Shown here one piece after another: positions 42,783-57,783 of a DNA stretch of 64,000 nt. The notes beneath the pieces are model-generated. The model searched no databases. It was given only the letters and a program-made list of their open reading frames with translations, and had not been told where the DNA came from. The translations under genes were made by a program, and so were the position numbers. Source of the DNA: Streptomyces asoensis (GTDB lineage Bacteria; Actinomycetota; Actinomycetes; Streptomycetales; Streptomycetaceae); NCBI RefSeq assembly GCF_013085465.1, contig NZ_CP049838.1, forward strand, positions 8,494,001 through 8,558,000, in the 5' to 3' direction. The stretch's first letter is position 1. Each line of letters opens with the position of its first letter.

Positions 42783-43949
42783 CTACGGGTGCACCTCCAC
42801 CCAGGAGCCGCTCTCCGCGGAGCGGGTCATCGCCTCCAGCACGGTCGCGCTGTGCACCGCGTCCGCGAGTGTCGCCCCGTAGGGAGTGCCCTCGGCGACC
42901 GAGCGCAGGAAGCGGTAGGCCTCCACCACCTTCAGGTCGTCGTACCCCATGGCGTTCGCCGCGCCCGGCTGGAAGGCGGCGAACTCGCCGTCGCCCGGGC
43001 CGACGTACACCGTGCTGACGGGCTGGTCCTGATACGTGGTGCCGCGGCTGACGCCGAGCTCGTTCATCCGCCGGAAGTCCCAGAACACGGCGCCCTTGGT
43101 GCCGTGCACCTCGAAGCCGTAGTTGTTCTGCTCGCCGACGGAGACCCGGCAGGCCTCCAGCACGCCCCGGGCGCCGGAGGCGAAGCGCAGCAGGCAGTTG
43201 ACGTAGTCCTCGTTCTCGACCGGGCCGAGTTCACCGCCGACGGCAAGGCTGTGGCCGGCCGTCGCTCCCGTCGGGCGGGCCCGCTCGGGGACGAAGACCG
43301 CCGTGTCGGCCGTCAGGGACGTGATGTCGCCGAGCAGGAAACGGGCCAGGTCGACGCCGTGCGAGGCCAGGTCGCCCAGCACGCCGCTGCCGCCCCGCTC
43401 CCGCTCGTACCGCCAGGTCAGGGCGCCGTCGGGGTGGGCCGCGTAGTCGCTGAAGAGGCGGATGCGGACGTGGGTGACCGTGCCGAGCTCACCCGAGGCG
43501 ATCAGGTCGCGGGCGGCTTCCACGGCGGGCGCGTTGCGGTAGTTGAAGCCGACCGCGCCCTGCACGCCCGCCTTGGCCACCGCGTCCGCCACCGCCCGGG
43601 CGTCCTGGGGAGCGAGGCCCACCGGCTTCTCGATCCAGATGTGCTTGCCGGCCTCGGCCATCGCGACACCGATCTCGCGGTGCAGGAAGTTCGGCGCGGT
43701 GATGCTGACGGCCCGCACGCGCGGGTCGGCGGCCACCTCGCGCCAGTCCCGCGTGGCGGAGGCGAAGCCGAACTGCTCCGCGGCCTCGTCGGCCCGGCCG
43801 GGCACCTCCTCGGCGACGGCCACCAGCTCCGGCCGCAGGGCCAGCCGCGGGTAGTGGTGCCGTACGCGCGCGTACGCCTGGGTGTGCACCCGGCCCATCC
43901 AGCCGAACCCGACGACGGCCACTCCCAGTGCATCCACCATGGCAGTCAC
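42783..43949 (-). CDS. Gfo/Idh/MocA oxidoreductase, second copy
   Basis: A 388-residue member of the Gfo/Idh/MocA family. The Rossmann start is VAVVGFGWMGRVHTQAY, the Glu-Lys-Pro is in IWIEKPVGLAPQD (about residue 105) and SHGVDLARFLLGD holds the probable catalytic site. It is longer than the other copy at 37644-38648 and not closely alike, so it probably acts on a different cyclic polyol or sugar. GTG 43949 is chosen because AAGGAAGG lies five to six bases upstream; ATG 43940 is in frame. It is divergent from a LacI gene. Confidence 0.9.
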   Translation of the reverse strand: MTAMVDALGVAVVGFGWMGRVHTQAYARVRHHYPRLALRPELVAVAEEVPGRADEAAEQFGFASATRDWREVAADPRVRAVSITAPNFLHREIGVAMAEAGKHIWIEKPVGLAPQDARAVADAVAKAGVQGAVGFNYRNAPAVEAARDLIASGELGTVTHVRIRLFSDYAAHPDGALTWRYERERGGSGVLGDLASHGVDLARFLLGDITSLTADTAVFVPERARPTGATAGHSLAVGGELGPVENEDYVNCLLRFASGARGVLEACRVSVGEQNNYGFEVHGTKGAVFWDFRRMNELGVSRGTTYQDQPVSTVYVGPGDGEFAAFQPGAANAMGYDDLKVVEAYRFLRSVAEGTPYGATLADAVHSATVLEAMTRSAESGSWVEVHP

Positions 43950-44013
43950 CACAGCCCTTCCTTGGACCGCTCCATCCACTGACCAGGCCACCCTGCGGGC
44001 CGTTTCCCCAGGG

Positions 44014-44063
44014 TGTCAAGGGTTTCAAGGCCCTTTGACAACCGGTGCGCCACATGGAACGGT
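44014..44063. promoter_or_regulatory. Divergent promoters with inverted TGTCAA/TTGACA motif (LacI / Gfo-Idh)
   Basis: Rightwards TTGACA 44035-44040, 17 bases, AACGGT 44058-44063, and six bases later ATG 44070, so the LacI mRNA is probably leaderless. Leftwards TTGACA (complement of 44014-44019) with a CAGGGT-like -10 after 18 bases. The two -35 boxes face each other as TGTCAAGGG...CCCTTTGACA. The motif TGTCAAGGGTTT resembles TGTCAAGAGTTT at 31780-31791. Confidence 0.6.
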
Positions 44064-44069
44064 CCAATC

Positions 44070-45116
44070 ATGAGACCACCGACCATCCGTGACGTCGCCG
44101 ACCGGGCCGGAGTGTCCAAGTCACTGGTCTCCCTGGTGCTGCGCGGCTCCGACCAGGTGCGGGCCGAGAAGCGGGAGGCCGTCCTGCGGGCCGTGCGCGA
44201 GCTGGGCTACCGGCCCAACGCGGCCGCGCGCAGCCTCAGCGAGCAGCGCACCCTGTCCGACTCCCGGCCGGGCCCGGGCGGCGGGACCCCCATGGTCGGC
44301 GTCCTGCTGCACGACCTGCGCAACCCCTGGTACGTGGACCTCCTGGACGGCCTCAACTCCCTGCTGCACGCGAGCGGACTGCACATGCTGCTGGCCGACG
44401 CCCGGCTGCACCGGCGCGTCGGCCAGGACCCGGCCGGGCCCTTCCTGGACCTGGGGGCGGACGGGCTGGTCGTGGTCGGCACGCTGCCCGACCCGGCGGC
44501 GCTCGAGACCTTCGCCGCCCGGATGCCCGTCGTCGTCGCGGCGGCCCGCGAGCCGGTGCCGGCCGGAGTGGACCTGGTGGCGAACGACGACGAGCGCGGC
44601 GCCCGCCTGGTCACCGAGCACCTCGTCGGACTCGGCCACCGCCGCATCGCCCACCTGACGGGCTACGGTGCCGTCGCCGACCTGCGCCGGCGGGGCTTCG
44701 AGGCCACCATGCGGGCGGCGGGACCGGACCATGTGGCGCTGGTCGAGGCGGGGGACATGACCGAGGAGGGCGGCTACCGGGCCACGGTGCGGCTGCTCGC
44801 CCGCGCCGACCGGCCCACGGCCGTGTTCGCCGTCAACGACATGACGGCGGTGGGGGCGCTGTCGGCGGCCGAGGAACTGGGCCTGCGCGTGCCGCGCGAC
44901 CTGTCCGTGGTGGGCTACGACAACACCGGCATCTCCCGGCTGCGCCATGTGTGGCTCACGACCGTCGACGGCGCCGGCCACGAGGTCGGCCGCCGAGCCG
45001 CCCGCTGTCTGCTCGACCGCCTCGAACGGCCGGGAGGAGCGGGGCGGCTGCATCTGGCCCCGCCGGTCCTGGAGGTCCGGGGGACGACGGCGCGCCCGCC
45101 CGCGGTCACAGTGTGA
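44070..45116 (+). CDS. LacI-family transcriptional regulator
   Basis: A 348-residue LacI-type regulator. The helix-turn-helix is at residues 3-50 (TIRDVADRAGVSKSLVSLVL), and the sugar domain has MVGVLLHDLRNPWYVDLLDG (about residue 75) and FAVNDMTAVGALSAAEELGL. TTGACA-N17-AACGGT stands directly before it. It is divergent from the long Gfo/Idh gene, which it probably controls. Its 3' end overlaps that of the cupin gene by 11 bases. Confidence 0.93.
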   Translation: MRPPTIRDVADRAGVSKSLVSLVLRGSDQVRAEKREAVLRAVRELGYRPNAAARSLSEQRTLSDSRPGPGGGTPMVGVLLHDLRNPWYVDLLDGLNSLLHASGLHMLLADARLHRRVGQDPAGPFLDLGADGLVVVGTLPDPAALETFAARMPVVVAAAREPVPAGVDLVANDDERGARLVTEHLVGLGHRRIAHLTGYGAVADLRRRGFEATMRAAGPDHVALVEAGDMTEEGGYRATVRLLARADRPTAVFAVNDMTAVGALSAAEELGLRVPRDLSVVGYDNTGISRLRHVWLTTVDGAGHEVGRRAARCLLDRLERPGGAGRLHLAPPVLEVRGTTARPPAVTV

Positions 45117-46191: not shown

Positions 46192-46224
46192 ATTGTTGAC
46201 AATCTTGTTTCGCTAGATTTAGGT
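46192..46224 (+). promoter_or_regulatory. Promoter and operator of the GntR/gal-like operon
   Basis: TTGACA (46196-46201), 17 bases, TTAGGT (46219-46224). The -35 lies inside ATTGTTGACAAT (46192-46203), a dyad with arms ATTGT/ACAAT, the form typical of FCD-type GntR operators. The same ATTGTTGACAA occurs before the transporter gene at 50522. Confidence 0.7.
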
Positions 46225-46254: not shown

Positions 46255-46905
46255 ATGCCGAAAGAAGCCCGTCCGAGCACCGGGGAGCAGGCCAAACAGC
46301 ATGCGCTCGCGCAACTGCGGCAGGCGATCCTGCACGGCGAGATGGCACCGGCCCAGCGGCTGGTGGAGAACGAGCTCGCCGAGCAGTTCGGTGTGACGCG
46401 GGCCAGCATCCGCGCGGCACTCATCGATCTGGAGTCCCAGGGACTCGTCGAACGGATCCGCAACCGCGGTTCGCGGGTGCGGGTGGTGACCGTGGACGAA
46501 GCGGTCGCCATCACCGAGTGCCGCATGGTCCTCGAAGGACTGTGCGCGGCGAAGGCGGCCGTCGCGGCCAGCGACGACCAGCTGATCGAGCTGACCGACC
46601 TCGGCACGGCCATGACCAAGGCCGTGGCCGACGGCGAGCCGGTCACCTACTCCGACCTGAACCACGAACTGCACGTCCGCATCCGGGAGTTCTCCGGACA
46701 GCAGACCGCGCAGGAGCTGCTGGAGCGGCTCAACGCCCAACTGGTGCGCCACCGCTTCCAGTTGGCGCTGAGGCCGGGGAGGCCGCAGCAATCCCTGAAC
46801 GAGCACCTGACCATGATCGAAGCGATCCGGGCCAGGGACCCCCAGGCGGCCGAGACGGCCGTCCGCGCCCACCTCACCAGCGTGATCGAGGCGCTGCGCG
46901 ACTGA
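46255..46905 (+). CDS. GntR-family (FCD) regulator of the aromatic operon
   Basis: A 216-residue GntR regulator. The winged helix spans about residues 15-75 (RQAILHGEMAPAQRLVENEL, then FGVTRASIRAALIDLESQGL), and the helical FCD domain follows with metal-site His/Asp/Glu residues in TECRMVLEG and SDLNHELHVRI. GGGAGG stands before ATG 46255. It is the first gene of the operon and the promoter contains its probable operator, so it is likely self-regulating and lifts repression when an aromatic ring-cleavage product or substrate binds. Confidence 0.94.
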   Translation: MPKEARPSTGEQAKQHALAQLRQAILHGEMAPAQRLVENELAEQFGVTRASIRAALIDLESQGLVERIRNRGSRVRVVTVDEAVAITECRMVLEGLCAAKAAVAASDDQLIELTDLGTAMTKAVADGEPVTYSDLNHELHVRIREFSGQQTAQELLERLNAQLVRHRFQLALRPGRPQQSLNEHLTMIEAIRARDPQAAETAVRAHLTSVIEALRD

Positions 46906-46954
46906 TCACGACTGCGCGGGGCGGGCGCCCACCTGTCATCAAGGAGATCTGAGA

Positions 46955-47707
46955 ATGACCCAGGCCAACGCGCCCGCCAGCCCACCACGATCGACCCTCG
47001 TCGTCACCGCGCACGCCGGCGACTTCGTGTGGCGGGCGGGGGGCGCCATCGCCCTGGCCGCCTCCCGCGGGGAGAAGGTCACCATCGCGTGCCTGACCTT
47101 CGGCGAGCGCGGTGAGTCCGCCAAGGCGTGGCGCGAGGGCAAGAAGCTCGACGAGATCAAGGCGATACGCAGGGACGAGGCCGAGCGCGCCGCCGCCACC
47201 CTGGGCGCCGAGGTCCGCTTCTTCGACGCCGGCGACTATCCGCTCGTGGTCACCGCCGAGCTGACCGACCGGCTCGTCGCCGTCTACCGGGACACCCAGC
47301 CGGACGTGGTGCTGACCCACCCCACCGAGGACCCGTACAACGGCGACCACCCGGCCGCCAACCGCATGGCGCTGGAGGCCAGGGTCCTCGCGCAGGCCAT
47401 CGGCTACCCGGGCGAGGGCGAGATCATCGGCGCGCCGCCGGTCTTCTACTTCGAGCCGCACCAGCCGGAGATGAGCGGCTTCAGGCCCGAGGTCCTGCTC
47501 GACATCACCGAGGTGTGGGAGACCAAGCGCAAGGCCATGGAGTGCCTCGGCGCCCAGCGGCACCTGTGGGACTACTACACCGACCTCGCCGTGCGCCGGG
47601 GCGTCCAGCTCAAGCGCAACGCCGGCCCGAACCTGGGCCTGGCGCACAAGACCATGGCCGAGGCGTACATGCGTCCCTACCCGCAGATCGCGAAGGAGCT
47701 GTCATGA
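46955..47707 (+). CDS. galB: PIG-L-family 4-oxalomesaconate hydratase-like protein (GalB type)
   Basis: A 250-residue PIG-L/LmbE-family zinc protein. The first metal motif is TAHAGDFVWRAGG (about residues 18-30), where GalB of Pseudomonas putida has nearly the same sequence; the second is HPTEDPYNGDHPAAN. GalB hydrates 4-oxalomesaconate to 4-carboxy-4-hydroxy-2-oxoadipate in gallate breakdown. Here the two next enzymes of that same pathway, GalC and GalD, follow at once, which makes this assignment strong. The start is ATG 46955 after AAGGAGA. Confidence 0.88.
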   Translation: MTQANAPASPPRSTLVVTAHAGDFVWRAGGAIALAASRGEKVTIACLTFGERGESAKAWREGKKLDEIKAIRRDEAERAAATLGAEVRFFDAGDYPLVVTAELTDRLVAVYRDTQPDVVLTHPTEDPYNGDHPAANRMALEARVLAQAIGYPGEGEIIGAPPVFYFEPHQPEMSGFRPEVLLDITEVWETKRKAMECLGAQRHLWDYYTDLAVRRGVQLKRNAGPNLGLAHKTMAEAYMRPYPQIAKELS

Positions 47708-48408
47708 GCGGTGTGATCGTCACCGACCCGCCGAAGGCGGAGCTGAAGGACGTCGACGCGCTGGCCGGCTTCGGCGTGGCCACGGTCGGCGAGGCGCTGG
47801 GCCGGACCGGCCTGCTGAGCCCGGAGATCCGCCCGATCCAGCAGGGCGTACGGGTCGCCGGCACCGCCGTGACCGTACTCAGCTGGCCCGGCGACAACCT
47901 CATGATCCACGCGGCCGTCGAGCAGTGCGGCGAGGGCGACATCCTGGTCGTCACCACCACCTCCCCGTCCACCGACGGCATGTTCGGCGAGCTGTTCGCG
48001 ACCGCGCTCCAGCGGCGCGGAGTGCGGGGCGTGATCACCAACGCGGGCATCCGCGACACCCAGGAGCTGCGGGACATGGGCTTCGCGGCCTGGTCGCGGG
48101 CCGTCTCCTCGCAGGGCACCGTGAAGGCAACCGGCGGCTCGGTCAATGTACCGATCGCGATCGACGGCCAGGTGATCCGTCCGGGCGATGTGATCCTCGC
48201 CGACGACGACGGTGTCGTGGTCGTCCCGCGCGAGCGTGCCCGCGCCACCGCGGAGGCGTCCGAGGCCCGCGAGGCCAAGGAGGCCCGCTCCCGCGCCGCC
48301 TTCCTCGACGGCGAACTCGGCCTGGACCGCTACGGGTTGAGGGAGACCCTGAAGCGGCTCGGCGTCGAGTACAAGACGTACGACGCGTACGCGGGGGAGT
48401 CGTCGTGA
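47704..48408 (+). CDS. galC: 4-carboxy-4-hydroxy-2-oxoadipate aldolase / oxaloacetate decarboxylase (RraA fold, GalC/LigK type)
   Basis: A 234-residue RraA/DlpA-type class II pyruvate aldolase. The conserved parts are VRVAGTAVTVLSWPGDN, VTTTSPSTDGMFGELFAT, and RGVITNAGIRDTQELRDMGF, with the Arg-Asp of the metal site. The family cleaves 4-carboxy-4-hydroxy-2-oxoadipate to pyruvate and oxaloacetate. Start ATG 47704 overlaps the GalB stop, and GalD overlaps its end, so the three enzymes are translationally coupled. Confidence 0.92.
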   Translation: MSGVIVTDPPKAELKDVDALAGFGVATVGEALGRTGLLSPEIRPIQQGVRVAGTAVTVLSWPGDNLMIHAAVEQCGEGDILVVTTTSPSTDGMFGELFATALQRRGVRGVITNAGIRDTQELRDMGFAAWSRAVSSQGTVKATGGSVNVPIAIDGQVIRPGDVILADDDGVVVVPRERARATAEASEAREAKEARSRAAFLDGELGLDRYGLRETLKRLGVEYKTYDAYAGESS

Positions 48409-49517
48409 GCTCCGGGCCCGAGGAGCTGCCCTGCCTGCTGATGCGGGGCGGCACCTCCAAGGGCGCGTACTTCCTCGCCGAGGATCTCCCCGCCGAACCG
48501 GCCCTGCGCGACGAGCTGTTGCTGCGTGTCATGGGCAGTCCGGACGCACGCCAGATCGACGGCCTGGGTGGCGCGCACCCGCTCGCCAGCAAGGTGGCCG
48601 TGGTGTCGCCGTCGGCCGACCCGCACGCCGACGTCGACTACCTCTTCCTCCAAGTCGCCGTGGAACGGCCGGAGGTGAGTGATCGTCAGAACTGCGGCAA
48701 CATCCTCGCCGGTGTCGGCCCGTTCGCCGTGGAGCGCGGACTCGTCGCCGCGGGGGAGGAGGAGACCGCCGTCCGTATCCGCATGGTGAACTCCGACGAC
48801 TACGCGACGGCGACCTTCCCGACGCCGGGCGGTCGCGTGGACTACACCGGCGCCGCCGAGATCTCCGGGGTGCCGGGGACGGCCGCGCCCGTGGTGATCG
48901 AGTTCCCGCCGGGCACCGGCGCGCTGCTGCCCACGGGCAACGTCCGGGACGAGATCGACGGTGTGGCGGTGACCTGCGTGGACAACGGGATGCCGACGGT
49001 GCTCATCGCGGCCACCTCGCTCAAGGTCACCGGCTACGAGCTGCCCAGGGACCTGGAGGAGGACGTGGCGCTCGCCGACCGCCTCCGGACGATCCGCCTG
49101 GCGGCGGGCCGGCTGATGGGCCTCGGCGACGTCTCGGACGCCACCGTGCCCAAGCTCACGCTGCTCGCCGCGCCCCGTGGCGACGGCGCGGTCACCACCC
49201 GCACCTTCATTCCTGTGCGCTGCCACCCCTCGATCGGGGTGCTCGGCGCGGCCAGCGTCGCGGCAGGCCTTCGGATAGAAGGCAGTGTCGGGGCCGAGCT
49301 GGCGAGGATCGACGCCGACAGTGACCGAATTCGCATAGAACATCCCACCGGATTCCTGGATATCGAAAGTAGCCTCGGGTCGACCCCCGACGGTCTGCCC
49401 TCCGCCCGCCGCACCGCCGTGGTGCGCACGGCCCGAAAGATCTTCGACGGCACCGTCTTCCCCAGGTCCGCCGAGACGGCTCCCCTCTCTCCCCGCTCCC
49501 TTGGAGGTCAACGATGA
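48405..49517 (+). CDS. galD: PrpF-family 4-oxalomesaconate tautomerase (GalD type)
   Basis: A 370-residue PrpF-family isomerase. It begins CLLMRGGTSKGAYFLAEDLP, the GalD signature, followed by GGAHPLASKVAVVSPSA and the Cys-containing RQNCGNILAGVGPFAVERGL; TCVDNGMPTVLIAA holds the second half-site. It interconverts the keto and enol forms of 4-oxalomesaconate. The start is GTG 48405, overlapping the GalC stop, with GGGGGAG upstream. The last 20 residues after the PrpF core are not conserved. Confidence 0.93.
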   Translation: MSSGPEELPCLLMRGGTSKGAYFLAEDLPAEPALRDELLLRVMGSPDARQIDGLGGAHPLASKVAVVSPSADPHADVDYLFLQVAVERPEVSDRQNCGNILAGVGPFAVERGLVAAGEEETAVRIRMVNSDDYATATFPTPGGRVDYTGAAEISGVPGTAAPVVIEFPPGTGALLPTGNVRDEIDGVAVTCVDNGMPTVLIAATSLKVTGYELPRDLEEDVALADRLRTIRLAAGRLMGLGDVSDATVPKLTLLAAPRGDGAVTTRTFIPVRCHPSIGVLGAASVAAGLRIEGSVGAELARIDADSDRIRIEHPTGFLDIESSLGSTPDGLPSARRTAVVRTARKIFDGTVFPRSAETAPLSPRSLGGQR

Positions 49518-50464
49518 CTCCGCCGCTCGGCGACATCGCCCACATCGGCCATGCCCAGCTCTTCACCCCGGACCTGGACGCCAGTGTCGGCTTCTTCACG
49601 GACTACCTGGGGCTCACCGTCAACGGGCAGGACGGCGACACGGTCTACTTGCGGACCTTCGACGACTACGAGCACCACAGCCTGGTGCTCACCGCCCGCG
49701 AGCAGCCCGGTCTCGGCCGGCTGGCCCTGCGCACCTCCAGCGAGGAGGCGCTACAGCGCCGGGTCGCGGCGGTCGAGGCGGCGGGCGGCGCCGGCCACTG
49801 GGTCGAGGACGAACCCGGCCTCGGCAAGTTGTACGTCACCACCGACCCGGACGGCCACGAGCACGCCCTGTACTGGGAGAGCGAGCACTACCGGGCCCCC
49901 GACGAGCTGAAGCCGGCCCTGAAGAACCAGCCGCAGGCCAAGCCCAACCGGGGGGTGGGCGTACGGCGCCTGGACCACATCAACTTCCTCGCCGCCGACG
50001 TGCTGGCCAACTCCGAGTTCCAGCAGAACCTGCTGGGCGCCCGCCCCACCGAGCAGATCCGTCTCGACACGGGGAAGATCGCGGCGCGCTGGCTGACGTA
50101 CACGAACAAGTCGTACGACGTCGTCTACACCTCGGACTGGACCGGCAGCTCCGGGCGGCTGCACCACATCGCGTTCGCGACGGACACCCGTGAGGACATC
50201 CTGCGCGCCGCCGATCTCGCGATCGACTCGGGCGTGTTCATCGAGACGGGCCCGCACAAGCACGCCATCCAGCAGACGTTCTTCCTGTACGTCTACGAGC
50301 CCGGCGGCAACCGCATCGAGCTGTGCAACCCGCTCACGCGCCTCGTCCTGGCCCCCGACTGGCCGCTCGTCACCTGGACCGAGGAAGAGCGCAAGAAGGG
50401 GCAGGCCTGGGGTCTGCGGACGATCGAGTCGTTCCACACGCACGGCACACCGCCCGTGAGCTGA
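49514..50464 (+). CDS. Type I extradiol dioxygenase (VOC fold, catechol 2,3-dioxygenase-like)
   Basis: A 316-residue two-domain VOC protein that should open an aromatic diol between carbon atoms next to a hydroxyl. The iron ligands are His155 (LDHINF), His217 or His218 (LHHIAF) and Glu269 (NRIEL), nearly the positions of XylE (153, 214, 265). The late GPHKH...YVYEPGGNRIE is the extradiol signature. It follows GalD with ATGA overlap and so should supply 4-oxalomesaconate, the product of gallate cleavage. The known gallate dioxygenases are of the unrelated LigB type, which makes this enzyme the unusual part. The substrate is inference. Confidence 0.93.
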   Translation: MTPPLGDIAHIGHAQLFTPDLDASVGFFTDYLGLTVNGQDGDTVYLRTFDDYEHHSLVLTAREQPGLGRLALRTSSEEALQRRVAAVEAAGGAGHWVEDEPGLGKLYVTTDPDGHEHALYWESEHYRAPDELKPALKNQPQAKPNRGVGVRRLDHINFLAADVLANSEFQQNLLGARPTEQIRLDTGKIAARWLTYTNKSYDVVYTSDWTGSSGRLHHIAFATDTREDILRAADLAIDSGVFIETGPHKHAIQQTFFLYVYEPGGNRIELCNPLTRLVLAPDWPLVTWTEEERKKGQAWGLRTIESFHTHGTPPVS

Positions 50465-50509
50465 GCCTGTTTTTCGGGTGCGCAGGGCGTCGGACCAGCG
50501 GATCTCTGG

Positions 50510-50566
50510 ATTGTCGATGAGATTGTTGACAAAACTGTTGACTCTCCCCGGGCTGATCCTTAGCGT
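50510..50566 (+). promoter_or_regulatory. Promoter with three 12-bp direct repeats before the transporter
   Basis: ATTGTCGATGAG (50510-50521), ATTGTTGACAAA (50522-50533) and ACTGTTGACTCT (50534-50545) follow at exact 12-base steps. The promoter is TTGACT 50538-50543, 17 bases, TAGCGT 50561-50566. The central repeat equals the operator core at 46192. The GntR regulator probably binds here too, giving the transporter its own control. Confidence 0.65.
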
Positions 50567-50657
50567 CTTGCGCACACCGGGTCAGCCGCACGAGCCGCGC
50601 CGGCCCTCTTCACTCGTCCCCTCCAGGGATTGCCTCCTGGACGAGAGGAAAACAACG

Positions 50658-51983
50658 ATGTCCTCCTCCCCCGCGCTGTCCGCCCGCGGCAGCAGACTGG
50701 CCCTCCTGGTCGTCGGTCTGTGCTGGCTGGCCGTGCTCTTCGACGGCCTCGACATGTTCATCTACGGCTCGGTGCTGCCGCACCTGCTGGAGACGAAGAC
50801 CTTCGGCCTCACCCCGGACACGGCCGGTGACCTCGGCAGCTACGCCACCTTCGGCATGCTGATCGGCGCCCTGACGGCGGGCACCGTCGCCGACCGGATC
50901 GGGCGCAAGAAGCTGATGGTCGGCTGCGTGACCCTCTTCTCGCTGGCCTCCGGCGTGTGCGCGATGGCGGGCAGCGTCGAGGTCTTCGGCCTCGGCCGGA
51001 CCCTGGCGGGCGTCGGCCTCGGCGGCCTGCTGCCCACCGCGATCAGCATGGTCTCCGACTACGCCCCGCGCGGCCGCGGCGCCCTCGTCATCGGCCTGCT
51101 GATGACCGCCCACCACGCCGGCGGCATCCTCTCCGCCTACGTCGCCAAGTGGCTCATCGACCCGGTCGGCTGGCGCGCCGCGTTCTGGGTGTGCGTGCTC
51201 CCGCTGCTCTTCGCCCCGGTGCTCGCCAAGCTGCTGCCCGAGTCGCTGAGCTTCCTCGTCGCCAAGGGCCGTGCCGACGAGGCCCGCGAGCTGGCCACCC
51301 GCTACGACGTCGAGCTGCCCGCCGACAAGTCCGGCAAGCAGGGCGCGGCCGACCGCTGGAACGCGCTGAAGAACCTCTTCCGCGGCGGCGAGTGGACCCA
51401 GACGCTGCTGTACTGGCTGGCCTCCTTCGGCGGTCTCCTCCTCGTCTACGGCGTCGCCACCTGGCTGCCCACCCTGATGCGCGCCGAGGGCTACGAGCTG
51501 GGCTCGGCCCTGTCCTTCGTGGTCGTCTTCAACCTCGGCGGCATCGTGGGCATGCTGGTCGCCGGACGCGCCGCCGACCGGTTCGGCGCCCCGCGCATCT
51601 CCGCGATCTGGTTCGGGCTGACCGCCGCCGGCGTGTTCCTGCTCAGCGTCCACATGCCGATGAGCGTGACGATGATCGTCGTCTTCTTCACCGGAGTCTT
51701 CCTCAACAGCGCCCAAACGATGATCTACGCGACGGTCTCCATCCGCTCCCACGCGGACAACCGGGCCACCGCCGTCGGCTGGACCTCCGGCATGGGCCGC
51801 TTCGGCGCCGTCTTCGGCCCGTGGCTGGGCGGCCAGCTGCTCGCCTCGAACCAGGGCGACCGGGGCTTCACCGCGTTCGCGATCGCCGGCCTGTCGTCCA
51901 TGGTCTTCATCGGCATCGCCGCGCTGCGCAGCTCCCGGCAGACTCCGCGCGGCGCCGACCAGGAGCTGGTGGGCGCCCACTGA
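50658..51983 (+). CDS. MFS aromatic acid:H+ symporter (AAHS family, BenK/PcaK/GalT-like)
   Basis: A 441-residue major-facilitator transporter with 12 helices. The AAHS mark DGLDMFIYGSVLP is in helix 1, with the loop motif GTVADRIGRKKLMVG and the corresponding AGRAADRFGAPRIS in the second half. Relatives import benzoate, protocatechuate, 4-hydroxybenzoate, gallate or vanillate. ATG 50658 follows AGAGGA. It is the last gene of the aromatic block but has its own promoter and operator repeats, which supports uptake of the cluster's substrate. Confidence 0.94.
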   Translation: MSSSPALSARGSRLALLVVGLCWLAVLFDGLDMFIYGSVLPHLLETKTFGLTPDTAGDLGSYATFGMLIGALTAGTVADRIGRKKLMVGCVTLFSLASGVCAMAGSVEVFGLGRTLAGVGLGGLLPTAISMVSDYAPRGRGALVIGLLMTAHHAGGILSAYVAKWLIDPVGWRAAFWVCVLPLLFAPVLAKLLPESLSFLVAKGRADEARELATRYDVELPADKSGKQGAADRWNALKNLFRGGEWTQTLLYWLASFGGLLLVYGVATWLPTLMRAEGYELGSALSFVVVFNLGGIVGMLVAGRAADRFGAPRISAIWFGLTAAGVFLLSVHMPMSVTMIVVFFTGVFLNSAQTMIYATVSIRSHADNRATAVGWTSGMGRFGAVFGPWLGGQLLASNQGDRGFTAFAIAGLSSMVFIGIAALRSSRQTPRGADQELVGAH

Positions 51984-52275: not shown

Positions 52276-53064
52276 ATGGGTGAGCGGTGGGAGGTCCGCC
52301 GGGCGGGCGCGACGAACGCCCCGCACCGGGTGCTGATGATTCCGGGCGGGCTGTGCACGACCGAGTTCTACGCGGACGTCATGGCCGAGCCGGCGGTGGC
52401 GGGGCTGGGCATGGTCGCGGCGACCCAGCCGGGCTTCGGCCGCACCGAGGCGCCCGAGGACGTGTCCATGGAGCACTACGCCCGGCTGATGGCCGACTTC
52501 GCCGCCGACGCCGGCTGCGACGCGGTCGTCGGGCACAGCCTCGGCGCGAACGTGGCGCTGGAGATGGCCGCGCAGGGCCTGTTCAAGGGCCCGTTGGTGC
52601 TGCTGTCGCCGACCTTCTCCCGGGGCGACGAGGCGAGGTTCCTGACCGTGCTGAACGCTCTGGGCCGGGTGCCCGGGATCGGTGCAGCGGCCTGGACTGC
52701 CATGATCGCGCTGCTGCCGCGGTCCGTGAAACGCGAAATGCCGCCGCACCGTGCCGAAGCGCTGGCGGCGGTCATGGGCGGCAACGATCCGGCGGTCTGT
52801 CGCCGGATCGTCCGGGGCTACTACGCGTACCTGGACCGGTATCCGTCGCTCGTACCGAGACTGTGCGGGTCCGGGGTGCCCGCCTGGGTGGTGCGCGGCG
52901 ACCGTGACGGGATCGGCCTGACGGCCGAGGAGCGGCAGGGCCTCGGGGCCTGCCCGCGCGTGCGCATGGTCACCGTGCCCGACGCGGGGCACCTCCTCCT
53001 CGTCGAGCAGCCGGCCGCGGTCGCCGAGATCATCGCGGAGGCGGCCACGGCGTCGGTGCGCTGA
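52276..53064 (+). CDS. Alpha/beta hydrolase
   Basis: A 262-residue alpha/beta hydrolase. Nucleophile elbow VGHSLGANVALEMA (Ser about residue 86), oxyanion start MIPGGLCTTEFY, Asp in WVVRGDRDGIG and His in DAGHLLLVEQPAAV. The family includes esterases, haloalkane and meta-cleavage hydrolases. It lies between the two aromatic blocks on the same strand but no promoter or overlap ties it to either. ATG 52276 is the first good start; the RBS is only GAGG. Confidence 0.88.
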   Translation: MGERWEVRRAGATNAPHRVLMIPGGLCTTEFYADVMAEPAVAGLGMVAATQPGFGRTEAPEDVSMEHYARLMADFAADAGCDAVVGHSLGANVALEMAAQGLFKGPLVLLSPTFSRGDEARFLTVLNALGRVPGIGAAAWTAMIALLPRSVKREMPPHRAEALAAVMGGNDPAVCRRIVRGYYAYLDRYPSLVPRLCGSGVPAWVVRGDRDGIGLTAEERQGLGACPRVRMVTVPDAGHLLLVEQPAAVAEIIAEAATASVR

Positions 53065-53114
53065 CGGCCGTCCTCGGCCGTTCTCGGTCGTTCTCGGCCG
53101 TTCTCGGTCGTCCT
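53065..53114. repeat. Tandem repeat, 5 x 10 bp, filling a convergent gap
   Basis: Five units of the form CGG(C/T)CGT(C/T)CT run from the hydrolase stop to the stop of the converging cupin gene, so the repeat exactly fills the 49-base gap. A sixth partial unit reaches into the cupin gene end. Confidence 0.85.
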
Positions 53115-53527
53115 CAGTCGTCGGAGCCCATCTGGTCCTGTGCCGACAGGTGTTCCACCGTCCGGCCGGTCTCGGTGAACGTGCGCGTCACATGGCCCGA
53201 GGAGTACACCCACAGGATCCGCAGCGGGCGGTCGCCGATGTTGCGGAACAGGTGGGGGATCGGGGACGGCACGTACGTGGTGTCGAACCGCTCCAGCTTC
53301 GTCACCTCGCCGTCCACCCACACCTCCGCCTCGCCCTCGAGGATCGTCACGTGCTCGTCGCAGTTGTGCGAGTGCAGCGGGGCCCCGGAGCCGACGGGGT
53401 AGACGCTCATCCCGCTGGTGATCCGGTTCTCCCCGTTCGCCGCCGCGGTGGTGACGAGCGGTGTCGTCACGACCGCGCCGCCGCGGTCGAGCAGCGGGAC
53501 GGACGCGGCCTTGATGATGGTGGTCAT
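53114..53527 (-). CDS. Cupin-domain protein
   Basis: A 137-residue cupin. The metal-type motif is [20 protein letters not shown] (about residues 51-70) and the second motif [14 protein letters not shown]. Such proteins in aromatic clusters are often small dioxygenases or ligand sensors. It is divergent from the carboxymuconolactone-decarboxylase-like gene, 171 bases apart. That gap carries no clear promoter pair. The function is not assigned. Confidence 0.87.
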
Positions 53528-53698
53528 GTCGGACGACGTTAGGTCGCCGCCCGGCGAATGGGGGGCCTCCGGCGTGCAGTTTTACGTTGCGCTCCGAGGT
53601 GGGTGAGCTTCTCGGACACGGCTGTACCTTCACCTGGCACCGCACGGATTCACGACCCGTGCCCGTAATGCGCCGGAAAGAAAAGGCAGGTAACGGCC

Positions 53699-54286
53699 GT
53701 GAGGCTCCCCGTTCTCGACGAAGAGGAAATGGATGCGCGGCAGCAGGAGCTGGCCGCGCGGATCGCCGGCCGCCGTGGCGCGGTGCGCGGTCCCTTCCGG
53801 GTCTGGCTGCACAGCCCGGAGATGTGCGAACGGGCCGAGTCGCTCGGCGCGTTCGCCCGCTTCGACTGCTCGCTGCCGAAGCACCTGCGCGAGCTGACCC
53901 TGCTGATGGCCGCCCGCAACTGGGACGCCCAGTACTCCTGGAACGCCCATGTGCACCAGGCGATCGAGGCCGGCATTCCGGAGGCCGCCGTGAAGGCGAT
54001 CGCCGAGAAGCGCGAGGCGGTCTTCGACAACGAGGCGGACCAGGTCTTCTACCGGTTCTGCCGGGAGATCCTCGACGAGCACTTCGTCACCGACGCCACC
54101 TTCGCGGCGGCACTGGCGCACTTCGGCTCCAAGGGCCTGGTGGACACCATCGGCGCGCTCGGCAACTTCACCATGCTCGGCATGTGCCTGAACACCTTCC
54201 AGGTGGACCTCCAGGCCGACAAGGAGCCCCCCTTCCCGGACATCCGCGGCTACGGACGTGTGGCCCCCGAGGGCGACCGGCCATGA
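53699..54286 (+). CDS. Carboxymuconolactone decarboxylase-family protein
   Basis: A 195-residue CMD/AhpD-like helical protein. The core is LRELTLLMAARNWDAQYSWNAHVHQAIEAG (only the ELTLLMAARNW and WNAHVHQA parts matter), where other family members have the catalytic Glu/Cys/His. No C-x2-C peroxidase motif is seen, so it is closer to the decarboxylase side than to AhpD. GTG 53699 is the likely start. It overlaps the ABC ATPase gene by ATGA, an unexpected link between a ring-product enzyme and a sugar-type importer. Confidence 0.85.
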   Translation: MRLPVLDEEEMDARQQELAARIAGRRGAVRGPFRVWLHSPEMCERAESLGAFARFDCSLPKHLRELTLLMAARNWDAQYSWNAHVHQAIEAGIPEAAVKAIAEKREAVFDNEADQVFYRFCREILDEHFVTDATFAAALAHFGSKGLVDTIGALGNFTMLGMCLNTFQVDLQADKEPPFPDIRGYGRVAPEGDRP

Positions 54287-55770
54287 CCGCCGTACTGCGC
54301 GCCCGGGGCGTCACCAAGAGCTTCGGCGGGGCGGCCGCGCTGAAAGGCGTCGACCTCGACCTGTACCCCGGCGAGGTCCACGCCCTGATGGGCATGAACG
54401 GCGCCGGCAAGTCGACCCTCGTGCAGGTGCTGTCCGGCGTGCACCAGGCAGACGCCGGCACGATCGAGGTCGACGGGCAGGAGCAGCACGGGCTGAGTGT
54501 GCGCAGGGCGCGCAGGCTGGGCATCTCCTCGGTGCCGCAGCGCCGCGAGCTGGCGATGGGCCTGAGCGTCGCCGAGAACATCCTGCTCGGCGACCTGCCC
54601 ACACGAGGGCGCGCCGTGCGGTGGAGGGCCGTCAGGGAAGAGGCCCGCACGGCCCTCGCCGCCCTGGGGATCGCCATCGACGTGGAACGCGCCGCCGGTT
54701 CGCTCACCGTCGCCGAGCAGACCATGGTGGAGGTGGCCCGCGAGGTCCGGCGCGGCGGCCGCGTGCTGATCCTGGACGAGCCGACCGCGTGTCTGAGCGC
54801 CAAGGACGCCCACCGGATCCGCGCCCTGGTGCGCACCCTGCGCGACGAGGGCGTCGCCGTCGTCTACATCTCGCACTACATCGACGAGGTCATGGCCGTC
54901 GCCGACCGCCTCACGGTGCTGCGGGACGGGGCCGTCGTGACGAGCGCGCCCGCCGCCGAGCTGGACGACGCGGGACTGGTGCGCGCCATGGTCGGCCGGG
55001 ACGTCGTCTCCACCCGCCCCGAACGTCCCACGCCGAAGGACGAAGTCGGCCTCGCGGTAAGGGGGTTGAGTCAGGGGCGGGCCATCCGGGACTTCACCGT
55101 CGAGGTGCGCAGGGGCGAGATCGTCGCCGTCCTCGGGCCCGCCGGGGACGCCCAGTCCCGGCTGTTCGACCTGCTGTCCGGACGGCAGCGCCCGGAGAGC
55201 GGCGATCTGCATGTCGACGGCAGGGCCGTGCCCTTCGGCCGGGTCCCGGCCTCGCTCGCCAGCGGGCTGCGCTGTGTCACCGGCGACCGCCGCGCCCTGG
55301 GTCTGGTCCCGGGCATGTCGCTGGACGAGAACCTGATGCTCGCCGACGACCGGTTCGCGCGCCGGCGTCTGCACCGGCGCGGCCAACTGGCCCGCCGGGC
55401 CGCCCCGTTGCGCCACAGCTACGGAGTCAGGGCGCTGGCCGGGAACCCGCCGGTGAGCGCGCTGTCGGGCGGCAACCAGCAGAAGGTGCTGCTCGGGAAG
55501 TGGCTGGAGACCTCACCGGCCGCGTGCTTCCTGGAGGACCCCACCAACGGCGTGGACATCGCGGCCATGGCCGACATCCACACCCTCCTCGACGACCTCG
55601 CCTCCCGGGGAGTGGCCGTACTGCTCGCCTCCTCCTCCGCCGAGGAGGTCATGCGGCTGGCCGACCGGGTCGTCGTCGTGAGCGCCGGCCGCACGGTCGC
55701 CGAACACGACATCACCGCCATCACCCGCGACGAACTCGTCGCCACGGCCCTCGGAGGACAAGCGCAGTGA
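54283..55770 (+). CDS. Ribose-type ABC transporter ATPase (two-domain, RbsA-like)
   Basis: A 495-residue protein with two nucleotide-binding domains. Domain 1: Walker [12 protein letters not shown] (about residue 38), signature-like LTVAEQTMVEVA, Walker [12 protein letters not shown]. Domain 2: a changed Walker A, GPAGDAQSRLF, without Lys, LSGGNQQKVLL and FLEDPTNGVD. This is the normal RbsA/XylG pattern, where the second site is degenerate. The gene overlaps the CMD gene and the permease gene at both ends, so the importer is translationally linked with the enzyme. Confidence 0.94.
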   Translation: MTAVLRARGVTKSFGGAAALKGVDLDLYPGEVHALMGMNGAGKSTLVQVLSGVHQADAGTIEVDGQEQHGLSVRRARRLGISSVPQRRELAMGLSVAENILLGDLPTRGRAVRWRAVREEARTALAALGIAIDVERAAGSLTVAEQTMVEVAREVRRGGRVLILDEPTACLSAKDAHRIRALVRTLRDEGVAVVYISHYIDEVMAVADRLTVLRDGAVVTSAPAAELDDAGLVRAMVGRDVVSTRPERPTPKDEVGLAVRGLSQGRAIRDFTVEVRRGEIVAVLGPAGDAQSRLFDLLSGRQRPESGDLHVDGRAVPFGRVPASLASGLRCVTGDRRALGLVPGMSLDENLMLADDRFARRRLHRRGQLARRAAPLRHSYGVRALAGNPPVSALSGGNQQKVLLGKWLETSPAACFLEDPTNGVDIAAMADIHTLLDDLASRGVAVLLASSSAEEVMRLADRVVVVSAGRTVAEHDITAITRDELVATALGGQAQ

Positions 55771-56789
55771 GCGTCAAGACACTTTCCGATGCCCCTGGTG
55801 TGTCCGTCCCGCCCGAGGCGCCCAAGTCCCGTTTCACCCTGGGCAAGGTGCGCGATGTGCCGCACGCCGGGCTGATCGCCGTGCTCGTCCTCGTCGTGGT
55901 GTTCACCGCCGCGCAGAGCGAGACGTTCGCCACCGACCGCAACATCGTCAACATCCTCAGCCAGGTGAGCGTCAACGCCGTACTCGCCGCGGGGCTCACC
56001 CTGTTGATGACCGCGGGCGGCATGGACTTCTCCATGGGCAGCAACGTCGCCGTCACGGCAGCCGTGTCGGCGAAACTGCTCGCCGACGGCCAGCCCACCG
56101 GCTACGCCGTCGTCGTCGCGCTGCTGCTCGGCACCGCCATCGGACTCGTCAACGGGCTGGTGGTGACCTTCACCAATGTGGCGCCGTTCGTCGTGACGCT
56201 GGCCTCGGCCACCCTGCTCGACGGCGTCGCGCTCCTGGTCCACGACGGCTCCACCATCTCCATCGGCACCCGGATGTCCGCCCTCGGCAACGACAAGGTG
56301 CTCGGCGTGCCGTATCTGCTGATCGTCGCCGTCCTGGTGCTGATCGTGACGGCGCTCGTCATGCGGTTCACGGTGTTCGGCCGGGACGCCTTCGCCATCG
56401 GCGGCAACGAGCACGTGGCCCGCCTCAGCGGCATCAACGTCACCGCCCGCAAGCTCACCCTGTACGGCCTCACCGGCACCCTCTCCGGACTCGCCGGCCT
56501 GATGCTGCTGTCCCGCCTCGGCTCCTCCAGCCCCGGCGGCACCGCCGGCCTCTCGCTTCAACTGGCCGTGGTCGCCGCGGTGGTGATCGGCGGCACCTCG
56601 CTGGCCGGCGGGCACGGCACCGTCATCGGCACCGCTCTCGGCCTGGTGCTGCTCGGTGTGGTGGCCAACGCGCTGAACCTCCTGGACTTCTCCAGCAACT
56701 ACCAGCCGGTCTCCGTCGGCGCCGTGCTGCTCGTCGCGGCCATCGCCAACGAGATGCACAAGGCCCGCTCGGGCTCGGCGCGTCACTGA
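55767..56789 (+). CDS. Ribose-type ABC transporter permease
   Basis: A 340-residue RbsC-type permease with about ten helices. Family parts are LLMTAGGMDFSMGSNVAV (about residues 78-95), VTFTNVAPFVVTLASATLLDG, and the loop AIGGNEHVARLSGINVTARK. GTG 55767 overlaps the ATPase stop, and GGAGGA lies before it. It makes the membrane channel of the importer and is normal in length. Confidence 0.95.
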   Translation: MSVKTLSDAPGVSVPPEAPKSRFTLGKVRDVPHAGLIAVLVLVVVFTAAQSETFATDRNIVNILSQVSVNAVLAAGLTLLMTAGGMDFSMGSNVAVTAAVSAKLLADGQPTGYAVVVALLLGTAIGLVNGLVVTFTNVAPFVVTLASATLLDGVALLVHDGSTISIGTRMSALGNDKVLGVPYLLIVAVLVLIVTALVMRFTVFGRDAFAIGGNEHVARLSGINVTARKLTLYGLTGTLSGLAGLMLLSRLGSSSPGGTAGLSLQLAVVAAVVIGGTSLAGGHGTVIGTALGLVLLGVVANALNLLDFSSNYQPVSVGAVLLVAAIANEMHKARSGSARH

Positions 56790-56829
56790 CCTTCCCTCTC
56801 GTTCCTGCCTCGTCCTGAAAGGCGTCACC

Positions 56830-57783
56830 ATGAGACTCTCCGCCCGTTCGCGCAGGGCACTGTTCGCCACCGTCACCGGCTCCACCCTGGTGCTGACCGG
56901 CTGCGGCAACGGCGACAGCGGCAGCGGCAGTGCCGACAGCGTCTCCCTCGGCTTCGTCAACGGTGGCGACACCAACTTCCACAGCTGTCTCCAGAAAGCC
57001 GTCGAGGGCCAGGCGAAGACCGCGGGAGCGAAGGTCTACACGGCCAACTCCCACCAGAACGCCGGGACCGAGCTGTCCAACATCGAGGACATGATCTCCC
57101 GCAACGTGAGCGCGCTGATCGTGCAGACGGTCAACGTCGACGCGCTCAAGGGTGACATCGCCAAGGCGAAGGCCTCGGGCATACCGATCTATCTGACCTC
57201 CGTGTCCACCGGTGACGCCGACGACATCCTCGGCGCGGCCGTCGTCGACCTCAAGAAGGTCGGCAGCCTCGACGCGGGCTGGATCGCCCAGGACGCGGGC
57301 ACCGAGCAGGTGCAGGTCGGCATCGTGGCCGGGGCTCCGGGCGCGGCCTCGGACCTGCTGGTGGGCGGCTTCAAGAGCGCCCTCCCGGCCACGGCGAAGG
57401 TCGTCGCCAACCAGCCGGGCATGTTCAATCCCGCGAAGGCCCAGGACGTGGCGGAGAACATGATCCAGGCCCATCCCGACCTGGACTACGCGTTCGTCGC
57501 CAACGAGGAGATGGCCTTCGCCGTGCGCAAGGCGTTCGACGCCGCCGGCGCGAAGGACGTCAAGATCGTCACCGCGAACGGGACCGACGAGGGCCTGGCC
57601 GCCGTCAAGAACGGCGAGTTCTCGGCCACCGTCGCGAACTCGGCGAAGACGATCGGCGAGACGGCCGTGAAGAACGCCGTCGGGCTCCTGAACAAAGAAA
57701 AGGTTGACAAGATTGCCAACATTCCTCTTCTGTTGGTGACCGAGGACAACCTGAGCGAGGCACCCCAGTACTGCCCGAAGTGA
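56830..57783 (+). CDS. ABC transporter substrate-binding lipoprotein
   Basis: A 317-residue lipoprotein of the Peripla_BP_4 class. The lipobox LTGC is at about residue 24 (VLTGCGNGD). The domain starts VSLGFVNGGDTNFHSCLQKAVEG and includes IEDMISRNVSALIVQTVNVDALK. A rather acidic C-terminus ends APQYCPK. It follows the permease by 40 bases and completes an importer of ribose type. Its neighbours suggest that the ligand may be an aromatic or cyclic compound, but the sequence alone would say sugar. Confidence 0.94.
   Translation: MRLSARSRRALFATVTGSTLVLTGCGNGDSGSGSADSVSLGFVNGGDTNFHSCLQKAVEGQAKTAGAKVYTANSHQNAGTELSNIEDMISRNVSALIVQTVNVDALKGDIAKAKASGIPIYLTSVSTGDADDILGAAVVDLKKVGSLDAGWIAQDAGTEQVQVGIVAGAPGAASDLLVGGFKSALPATAKVVANQPGMFNPAKAQDVAENMIQAHPDLDYAFVANEEMAFAVRKAFDAAGAKDVKIVTANGTDEGLAAVKNGEFSATVANSAKTIGETAVKNAVGLLNKEKVDKIANIPLLLVTEDNLSEAPQYCPK

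Follow-up and report, generated by a model that had tools for sequence, protein, structure and literature searches.

A run of six same-direction genes in the 64-kb window analyzed here (positions 8,494,001–8,558,000 of the 10.04-Mb single-contig genome of Streptomyces asoensis), namely gntR, galB, galC, galD, voc, and an MFS gene, is best read as a familiar type of gallate cluster in which an unrelated ring opener, an unrecognized type I gallate 4,5-dioxygenase, stands in for GalA. Hydrolysable tannins are built around gallate, which is also formed when syringyl lignin is degraded. It is very likely that the six genes form a complete gallate catabolic unit, that GalA/DesB has been replaced by the non-homologous VOC enzyme, and that a clade of such enzymes marked by Tyr201 does the same job in several phyla; similarly high confidence attaches to gallate as the main substrate, with catalysis predicted by comparison. 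A first-pass annotation of the sequence had proposed that a type I enzyme takes over from GalA in converting gallate to 4-oxalomesaconate, and the comparative evidence supports this proposal: the VOC enzyme shares the slot of GalA, voc-bearing genomes free of LigB matches exist, tannase and LigM genes occur as neighbors, and two unrelated hydratases accompany the same ring opener.

The placement of the six genes and their family assignments, as given in that annotation, were borne out by family models and a match to a solved structure. GalB (46955..47707; like the other five genes, on the + strand) is a PIG-L-type 4-oxalomesaconate hydratase (PF02585) whose best solved relative is the 4-oxalomesaconate hydratase 5cgz (E = 7.8e-79). 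GalC (47704..48408), a 4-carboxy-4-hydroxy-2-oxoadipate aldolase, scored 325 bits with NF006731 (cut-off 179) and 286.7 bits with TIGR02798, under the cut-off of 304.5, and GalD (48405..49517, GTG start), a 4-oxalomesaconate tautomerase, scored 490.7 bits with NF033377 (cut-off 440). Hydratase, aldolase, and tautomerase of the GalB-GalC-GalD lower pathway are thus all present. The voc product (49514..50464), a two-domain type I extradiol dioxygenase and the proposed gallate 4,5-dioxygenase, has matches to the domains PF00903, PF18029, and PF22677, and to neither PF02900 (LigB) nor PF07746 (LigA), in keeping with the earlier statement that no GalA/DesB-type enzyme is encoded in the cluster. Stop and start codons overlap by 4 bp at galB-galC (ATGA), galC-galD (GTGA), and galD-voc (ATGA), so that these four genes are probably translated together.

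The 2-His-1-Glu metal site of type I extradiol dioxygenases is present in the VOC protein (H155, H218, E269). These three residues had been described as intact, which holds for the metal ligands but not for the second-sphere catalytic His (His200 of homoprotocatechuate 2,3-dioxygenase, HPCD; His194 of BphC), the position of which is occupied by Tyr201 in the alignment with HPCD and AphC. At this position, 390 aligned rows, chosen from best hits and including many near-duplicates, showed Tyr in 369, His in 20, and Leu in 1, and Tyr was found in 239 of 240 homologues (the best 120 of 7,953 plus the best 120 of 5,116), the exception being P0207, an unusually long protein of 384 aa. A tree built from 89 sequences placed the 75 Tyr members in one group (support 0.966), which also contains P0207. 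Of the 360 distinct Tyr rows, all or almost all have Lys199 and Arg293; the corresponding shares among 19 distinct His rows are 16% and 5%, respectively. As a guess, these two residues might hold the gallate carboxylate. A second HPCD-like VOC protein of this genome (G000:C1:9830424-9831311, locus L084), 30% identical, has Leu at the second-sphere His position.

The position of voc was compared with that of LigB-type genes in a class sample of 394 genomes, 26 of which had a strong 4-oxalomesaconate tautomerase match (set at ≥437 bits; 24 were over the curated cut-off of 440). In 17 of these 26, 11 belonging to the genus of the window and 6 to others, voc was found within 160 bp of the strong tautomerase gene, and in 4 a LigB-type gene lay 0.2–3.3 kb from it; voc stood beside the tautomerase gene in none of the other 26 genomes, whose tautomerase matches are weaker. 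True fused GalA proteins were identified in genomes G386 and G422 (NF009904, 754 and 765 bits). The G386 locus (L196), where GalA matches both LigB and LigA domains, has the order GalB-GalC-GalD-GalA, corresponding slot for slot to the GalB-GalC-GalD-VOC of the window. In G318 and G558, the LigA-sized gene is distinct from the LigB gene, and additional genes of the pathway accompany them. Of the 17 voc genomes, three (G408, G591, and G474) had no LigB match and 12 had a best LigB match of 121 bits or less, the two true GalA proteins scoring 217–223 bits; the other two, G479 and G660, encode a protocatechuate-4,5-type LigB protein (307 and 308 bits, with a gallate-model cut-off of 412), the gene lying 12 kb from galD in G660. 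In a phylum sample of 296 genomes, voc was beside the tautomerase gene in all five genomes over the tautomerase cut-off, all five being of the window's genus and also members of the class sample; seven further genomes had a voc relative at E = 1e-60 and no over-cut-off tautomerase.

Within the genome of the window itself, the only LigB-type gene, encoding 269 aa without a LigA part, is located at 4.44 Mb, 4.1 Mb from the cluster, and its product most resembles 4,5-DOPA dioxygenases (176 bits with NF007914, below that model's cut-off of 233). A LigB enzyme encoded elsewhere and supplying the pathway, which the first-pass annotation had named as a finding that would speak against its proposal, was thus rejected as a candidate, the sole protein of this type being DODA-like. 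Two adjacent intradiol dioxygenase (PF00775) genes, as in pcaGH, were found at 8.397 Mb, and a strong match to dmpG (4-hydroxy-2-oxovalerate aldolase) at 8.350 Mb, 0.2 Mb from the cluster and about 5 kb from the gene for a remotely related VOC protein (25.7 bits against the query); protocatechuate and catechol may therefore be served by other ring openers. The genome also has three 4-hydroxybenzoate 3-monooxygenase-type genes over the cut-off.

The nearest relatives of voc are in Streptomyces, judged from the top 80 among 570 places confirmed in genome contigs, which are hence close relatives; 79 of these loci are titled Streptomyces and one 'Actinobacteria bacterium', with strains CB02400 and A108 contributing two each. 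A search for the gene order in other actinobacteria, as had been suggested, showed galB-galC-galD-voc to be kept in 76 of the 78 loci having more than 3.4 kb upstream, so the arrangement is not one of chance. Clustering of script-called genes gave, per 80 loci, voc in 80, galD and gntR in 79 each, galC in 78, galB in 77, and the MFS gene in 67, and the most frequent family outside these six was found in only 30, which identifies the six genes as the conserved unit. A LigI-candidate match was near none of the 80 loci, and a LigC- or LigI-like step is not part of the conserved unit, LigC not having been searched for and the LigC and LigI labels of genes at L180 and L181 being guesses.

Outside Streptomyces, members of the VOC clade accompany galC in Thermus as well as in alpha- and gammaproteobacteria. 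Indeed, galC was within 8.5 kb in 23 of 26 non-Streptomyces Tyr loci, and in 17 of 20 after removal of six tautomerase-selected loci (L183–L200 had been fetched because of their tautomerase genes, the 20 unselected Tyr loci coming from the voc search alone); at least six of the 20 are from Rhizobiaceae and not independent. By the same measure, galC was near none of the seven His loci. From 100 hit ids containing repeated records, 23 plasmid regions were picked for variety and opened: GalB, GalC, the tautomerase, and the VOC enzyme are encoded together on plasmids of Thioclava, Rhizobium, Roseibium, Agrobacterium vitis, and Pantoea piersonii, with no annotated tannase, and the run on plasmid pAt of a walnut Agrobacterium (L212) comprises PIG-L (GalB), VOC, GalC, 4-oxalomesaconate tautomerase, and tannase. 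In Thermus oshimai, the run is VOC, GntR, one further gene, GalB, and GalC. A LigJ-type gene lies beside voc in L184, L192, and L213, where a GalB match was not found, and the L184 protein matches 6dxq with E = 3.9e-164. GalB and LigJ are unrelated hydratases for one compound, and their presence beside the same ring opener points to 4-oxalomesaconate as the VOC product. In these comparisons, the query sequences for dmpG, LigM, tannase, LigJ, and GalA were themselves taken from L228, L183, L198, L184, and L196, respectively, which are therefore self-matches.

Genes that could deliver gallate are also found near the cluster. A tannase-family gene is less than 3 kb from voc in L184 and L198 (genomes G589 and G660) and in L212, and full-length tannase genes were found outside the genus in three of six voc genomes versus none of four LigB-type genomes. 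Within the genus, a tannase match was nearby in 4 of the 80 loci. A LigM-type vanillate/3-O-methylgallate O-demethylase gene adjoins the cluster of G408 (L183; 897 bits, cut-off 580), G591 encodes two folate-binding proteins of the LigM kind, and LigM-like genes are present in L200, L138, and L140.

These neighbors bear on the alternative that the main substrate of the VOC enzyme is 3-O-methylgallate or a different O-methylated gallate, from whose cleavage product an esterase leads to 4-oxalomesaconate. The model for this is the linear syringate pathway in Pseudomonas sp. NGC7, where MgaAB is followed by MgaC and MgaD (PMC12314914). LigM/DesA-type demethylases near the clusters of G408 and G591 fit this route, as does an alpha/beta hydrolase gene (52276-53064) downstream of the cluster in the window. 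However, LigM would be expected to convert 3-O-methylgallate to gallate, favoring gallate as the compound reaching the ring opener, and the tannase neighbors also indicate gallate; the alternative is therefore regarded as unlikely. The alpha/beta hydrolase, tried as a CHMOD esterase, was matched in just 9 of the 80 Streptomyces loci and was rejected for that role.

The enzyme could instead be a catechol dioxygenase, as annotated, or a protocatechuate dioxygenase, its operon position reflecting a mixed pathway. Its score with the catechol 2,3-dioxygenase model TIGR03211 (322.9 bits, cut-off 320.2) passes by 2.7 bits, which speaks for this alternative and explains the public name; in addition, dmpG and acetaldehyde dehydrogenase genes of the catechol meta pathway are near four of the seven His loci (one being the source of the dmpG query), and GalBCD would suit as the lower steps if protocatechuate underwent 4,5-cleavage. 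Yet dmpG was within 8.5 kb of none of 116 Tyr-type loci, the catechol cleavage product would be unusable by GalB, GalC, and GalD, and the dmpG with its distant VOC protein and the pcaGH-like intradiol pair described above are encoded elsewhere in the genome. For protocatechuate, a LigI-candidate match was found in only one of the 116 Tyr loci (L209; LigC was not part of the search). A role as catechol or protocatechuate dioxygenase is thus quite improbable. That the substrate is another carboxylated polyphenol, also cleaved to 4-oxalomesaconate or a close homologue, is very improbable: the lower enzymes fix the product and not the substrate, and Lys199 and Arg293 may suggest an acidic substrate, but the tannase and LigM-type neighbors and the identical slot of GalA favor gallate.

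Several observations weigh against a gallate-cleaving VOC enzyme and against the uniformity of the cluster. Without the customary catalytic His, the chemistry could be unusual or slow, although the strict conservation of Tyr argues for function. The residues Arg243 and Arg293 of HPCD, the clamp for the carboxylate of homoprotocatechuate, are replaced by T245 and G296, so that this clamp is absent, and the TIGR03211 score likewise belongs here. Neither ring opener was near the tautomerase gene in 5 of the 26 strong-tautomerase genomes. The cluster of G246 has no galB; among the Streptomyces loci, L042 has no galB and L075 neither galB nor galC. The loci L138 and L140 have no galD, and L211 and L224 no gal genes nearby. 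On plasmid p1-AD3 of Roseomonas mucosa (L209), a Tyr-type voc adjoins LigA-sized and LigB-type genes, with no galC found within 8.5 kb; L209, L211, and L224 are the exceptions to the galC linkage of the Tyr clade. Finally, the tannase-family protein of the window's genome is encoded at 9.35 Mb, 0.8 Mb away, adjoins an intradiol dioxygenase gene, and resembles MHETase and feruloyl esterases, and the idea that tannase marks the operon throughout the genus found no support, without clear enrichment of full-length genes, these being present in 3 of 11 voc-positive Streptomyces versus 3 of 29 others (of these 29, voc was searched for in 13, one of which, G641, has a 46% relative, and 16 were counted as negative by their missing tautomerase match).

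Some of these loci have features of their own. L138 and L140 hold GalB-GalC-VOC operons in a distant family of the phylum, where tautomerization may be spontaneous or carried out by another enzyme. At L209, two unrelated ring openers are side by side, together with an alpha/beta hydrolase. The tannase/feruloyl esterase-family protein of the window's genome (G000:C1:9347747-9350216, L232) appears secreted when inspected by eye. A gene for an NAD-binding/DUF1932-type oxidoreductase lies beside the voc-gal clusters of L138, L140, L184, L192, and L199 and is also found at the plasmid loci L209, L212–L214, L223, L225, and L231; it is outside the conserved Streptomyces unit and could be an overlooked step.

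On the reading of the VOC enzyme as a gallate dioxygenase, the importer would bring gallate into the cell, and the enzyme would bind it via OH-3 and OH-4 on a 2-His-1-Glu site that presumably holds iron. The C4–C5 bond would be cleaved with O2, giving 4-oxalomesaconate directly; GalD is then predicted to tautomerize this compound, GalB to hydrate it, and GalC to split it into pyruvate and oxaloacetate. The GntR protein would repress both operon and importer from two identical sites. A wider proposal, of moderate confidence, is that the VOC superfamily contains a widespread, unrecognized class of gallate dioxygenases that go by the wrong name of catechol 2,3-dioxygenase and cleave the 4,5 bond, distal to the carboxylate; its members would occur in Actinomycetota, Pseudomonadota, and Deinococcota and probably in Bacillota. 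Tyr201 would replace the His of types I and II or make it needless, Lys199 and Arg293 would be a new carboxylate clamp, and the class, of single origin from an alkylcatechol-type ancestor, would have displaced GalA, partly by way of plasmids.

Among known systems, the gal cluster of Pseudomonas putida shares with the window the GalB, GalC, and GalD families and the proposed chemistry. Its GalA, however, is a LigB/LigA type II enzyme, unrelated to the VOC protein, and its regulator is the LysR-type GalR (PMC12314914), whereas a GntR-type gene is found in the window. DesB of Sphingobium SYK-6 carries out the reaction proposed here, gallate to 4-oxalomesaconate; it is a type II enzyme with a catalytic His192 at a position said to match His194 of BphC (PMC3962378). 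In the VOC enzyme, this position is Tyr201. The type I enzymes HPCD and AphC have in common with the VOC protein a two-domain fold (by sequence), the metal ligands, and Asn157, Trp193, His250, and Tyr259. HPCD differs in having His200 and the Arg243/Arg293 pair, and the VOC protein, with T245 and G296, scored 200.2 bits with the HpaD model TIGR02295, below the cut-off of 321.4. PDB entry 9wgj, labelled 'Catechol 1,2-dioxygenase', belongs to the same Tyr clade (E = 1e-107 over VOC residues 7-315), and its printed stretch is 100% identical to the Geobacillus zalihae (Bacillota) protein P0121; no paper carrying this code was found in the literature searched. PraA, the protocatechuate 2,3-dioxygenase of Paenibacillus, also performs extradiol cleavage of a carboxylated catechol; compared by gene length only, praA is given as 881 bp (PMC13254512) and voc has 951 bp.

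In the literature, gallate dioxygenases are put in the LigB superfamily by AromaDeg (PMC4250580). The work on syringate in NGC7 lists two gallate dioxygenases, DesB and GalA, and includes a genome survey based on desB, ligAB, and galA (PMC12314914), and work on VanAB of a Streptomyces sp. indicates that gallate can arise in the genus, a gallate ring opener not being named in the part available (PMC9867520). The open literature searched, which excludes most subscription journals, yielded no account of a gallate dioxygenase of type I. A survey by galA, desB, and ligAB, such as that of the NGC7 study (PMC12314914), would miss gallate users with a VOC enzyme and read that enzyme as a catechol dioxygenase. 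If confirmed, the replacement would be a clear case of non-homologous enzyme replacement across phyla, many proteins named catechol 2,3-dioxygenase would need renaming, and Tyr201 would make it possible to test directly, in a natural enzyme, what the second-sphere His does during extradiol cleavage.

The gntR gene (46255..46905, +) encodes an FCD-type GntR regulator (PF07729 and PF00392), the presumed repressor of the cluster. An operator-like ten-base site, TTGTTGACAA, is located upstream of gntR (46193..46202, +) and again in the 193-bp gap between voc and the MFS gene (50523..50532, +); counting either strand, these are the only two occurrences in 64 kb, for which base composition predicts 0.007. 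Within the 150 bp preceding gntR, the site was found to be exact in 67 of 78 Streptomyces loci and to have one mismatch in the other 11, and a shuffled control (one shuffle per locus) always gave at least two mismatches. In the voc-MFS gap, for loci with a gap of 20–700 bp, it was exact in 49 of 60, with one mismatch in 10 and two mismatches in one. The two identical sites tie the importer to the operon, and the GntR protein would repress both at these putative operators.

The MFS gene (50658..51983, +) most likely starts at ATG 50658 rather than at GTG 50478. Its product had been called an AAHS importer; AAHS (TIGR00895) is indeed its best-scoring family, but at 292.8 bits the curated cut-off of 418.55 is not reached, so that the protein is described here as AAHS-like. 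Upstream of the unit, the window contains a levoglucosan-dehydrogenase-like Gfo/Idh gene and a divergent LacI-type regulator gene (42783-45116), and downstream genes for a cupin, a protein without a family match, and a sugar-type ABC transporter (53114-57783); a minority of the 80 relatives keep either group. The Gfo/Idh gene (42783-43940) was rejected as a LigC-like step, its product resembling levoglucosan dehydrogenase (302.7 bits, under the cut-off of 650) and its family being present in 30 of the 80 loci.

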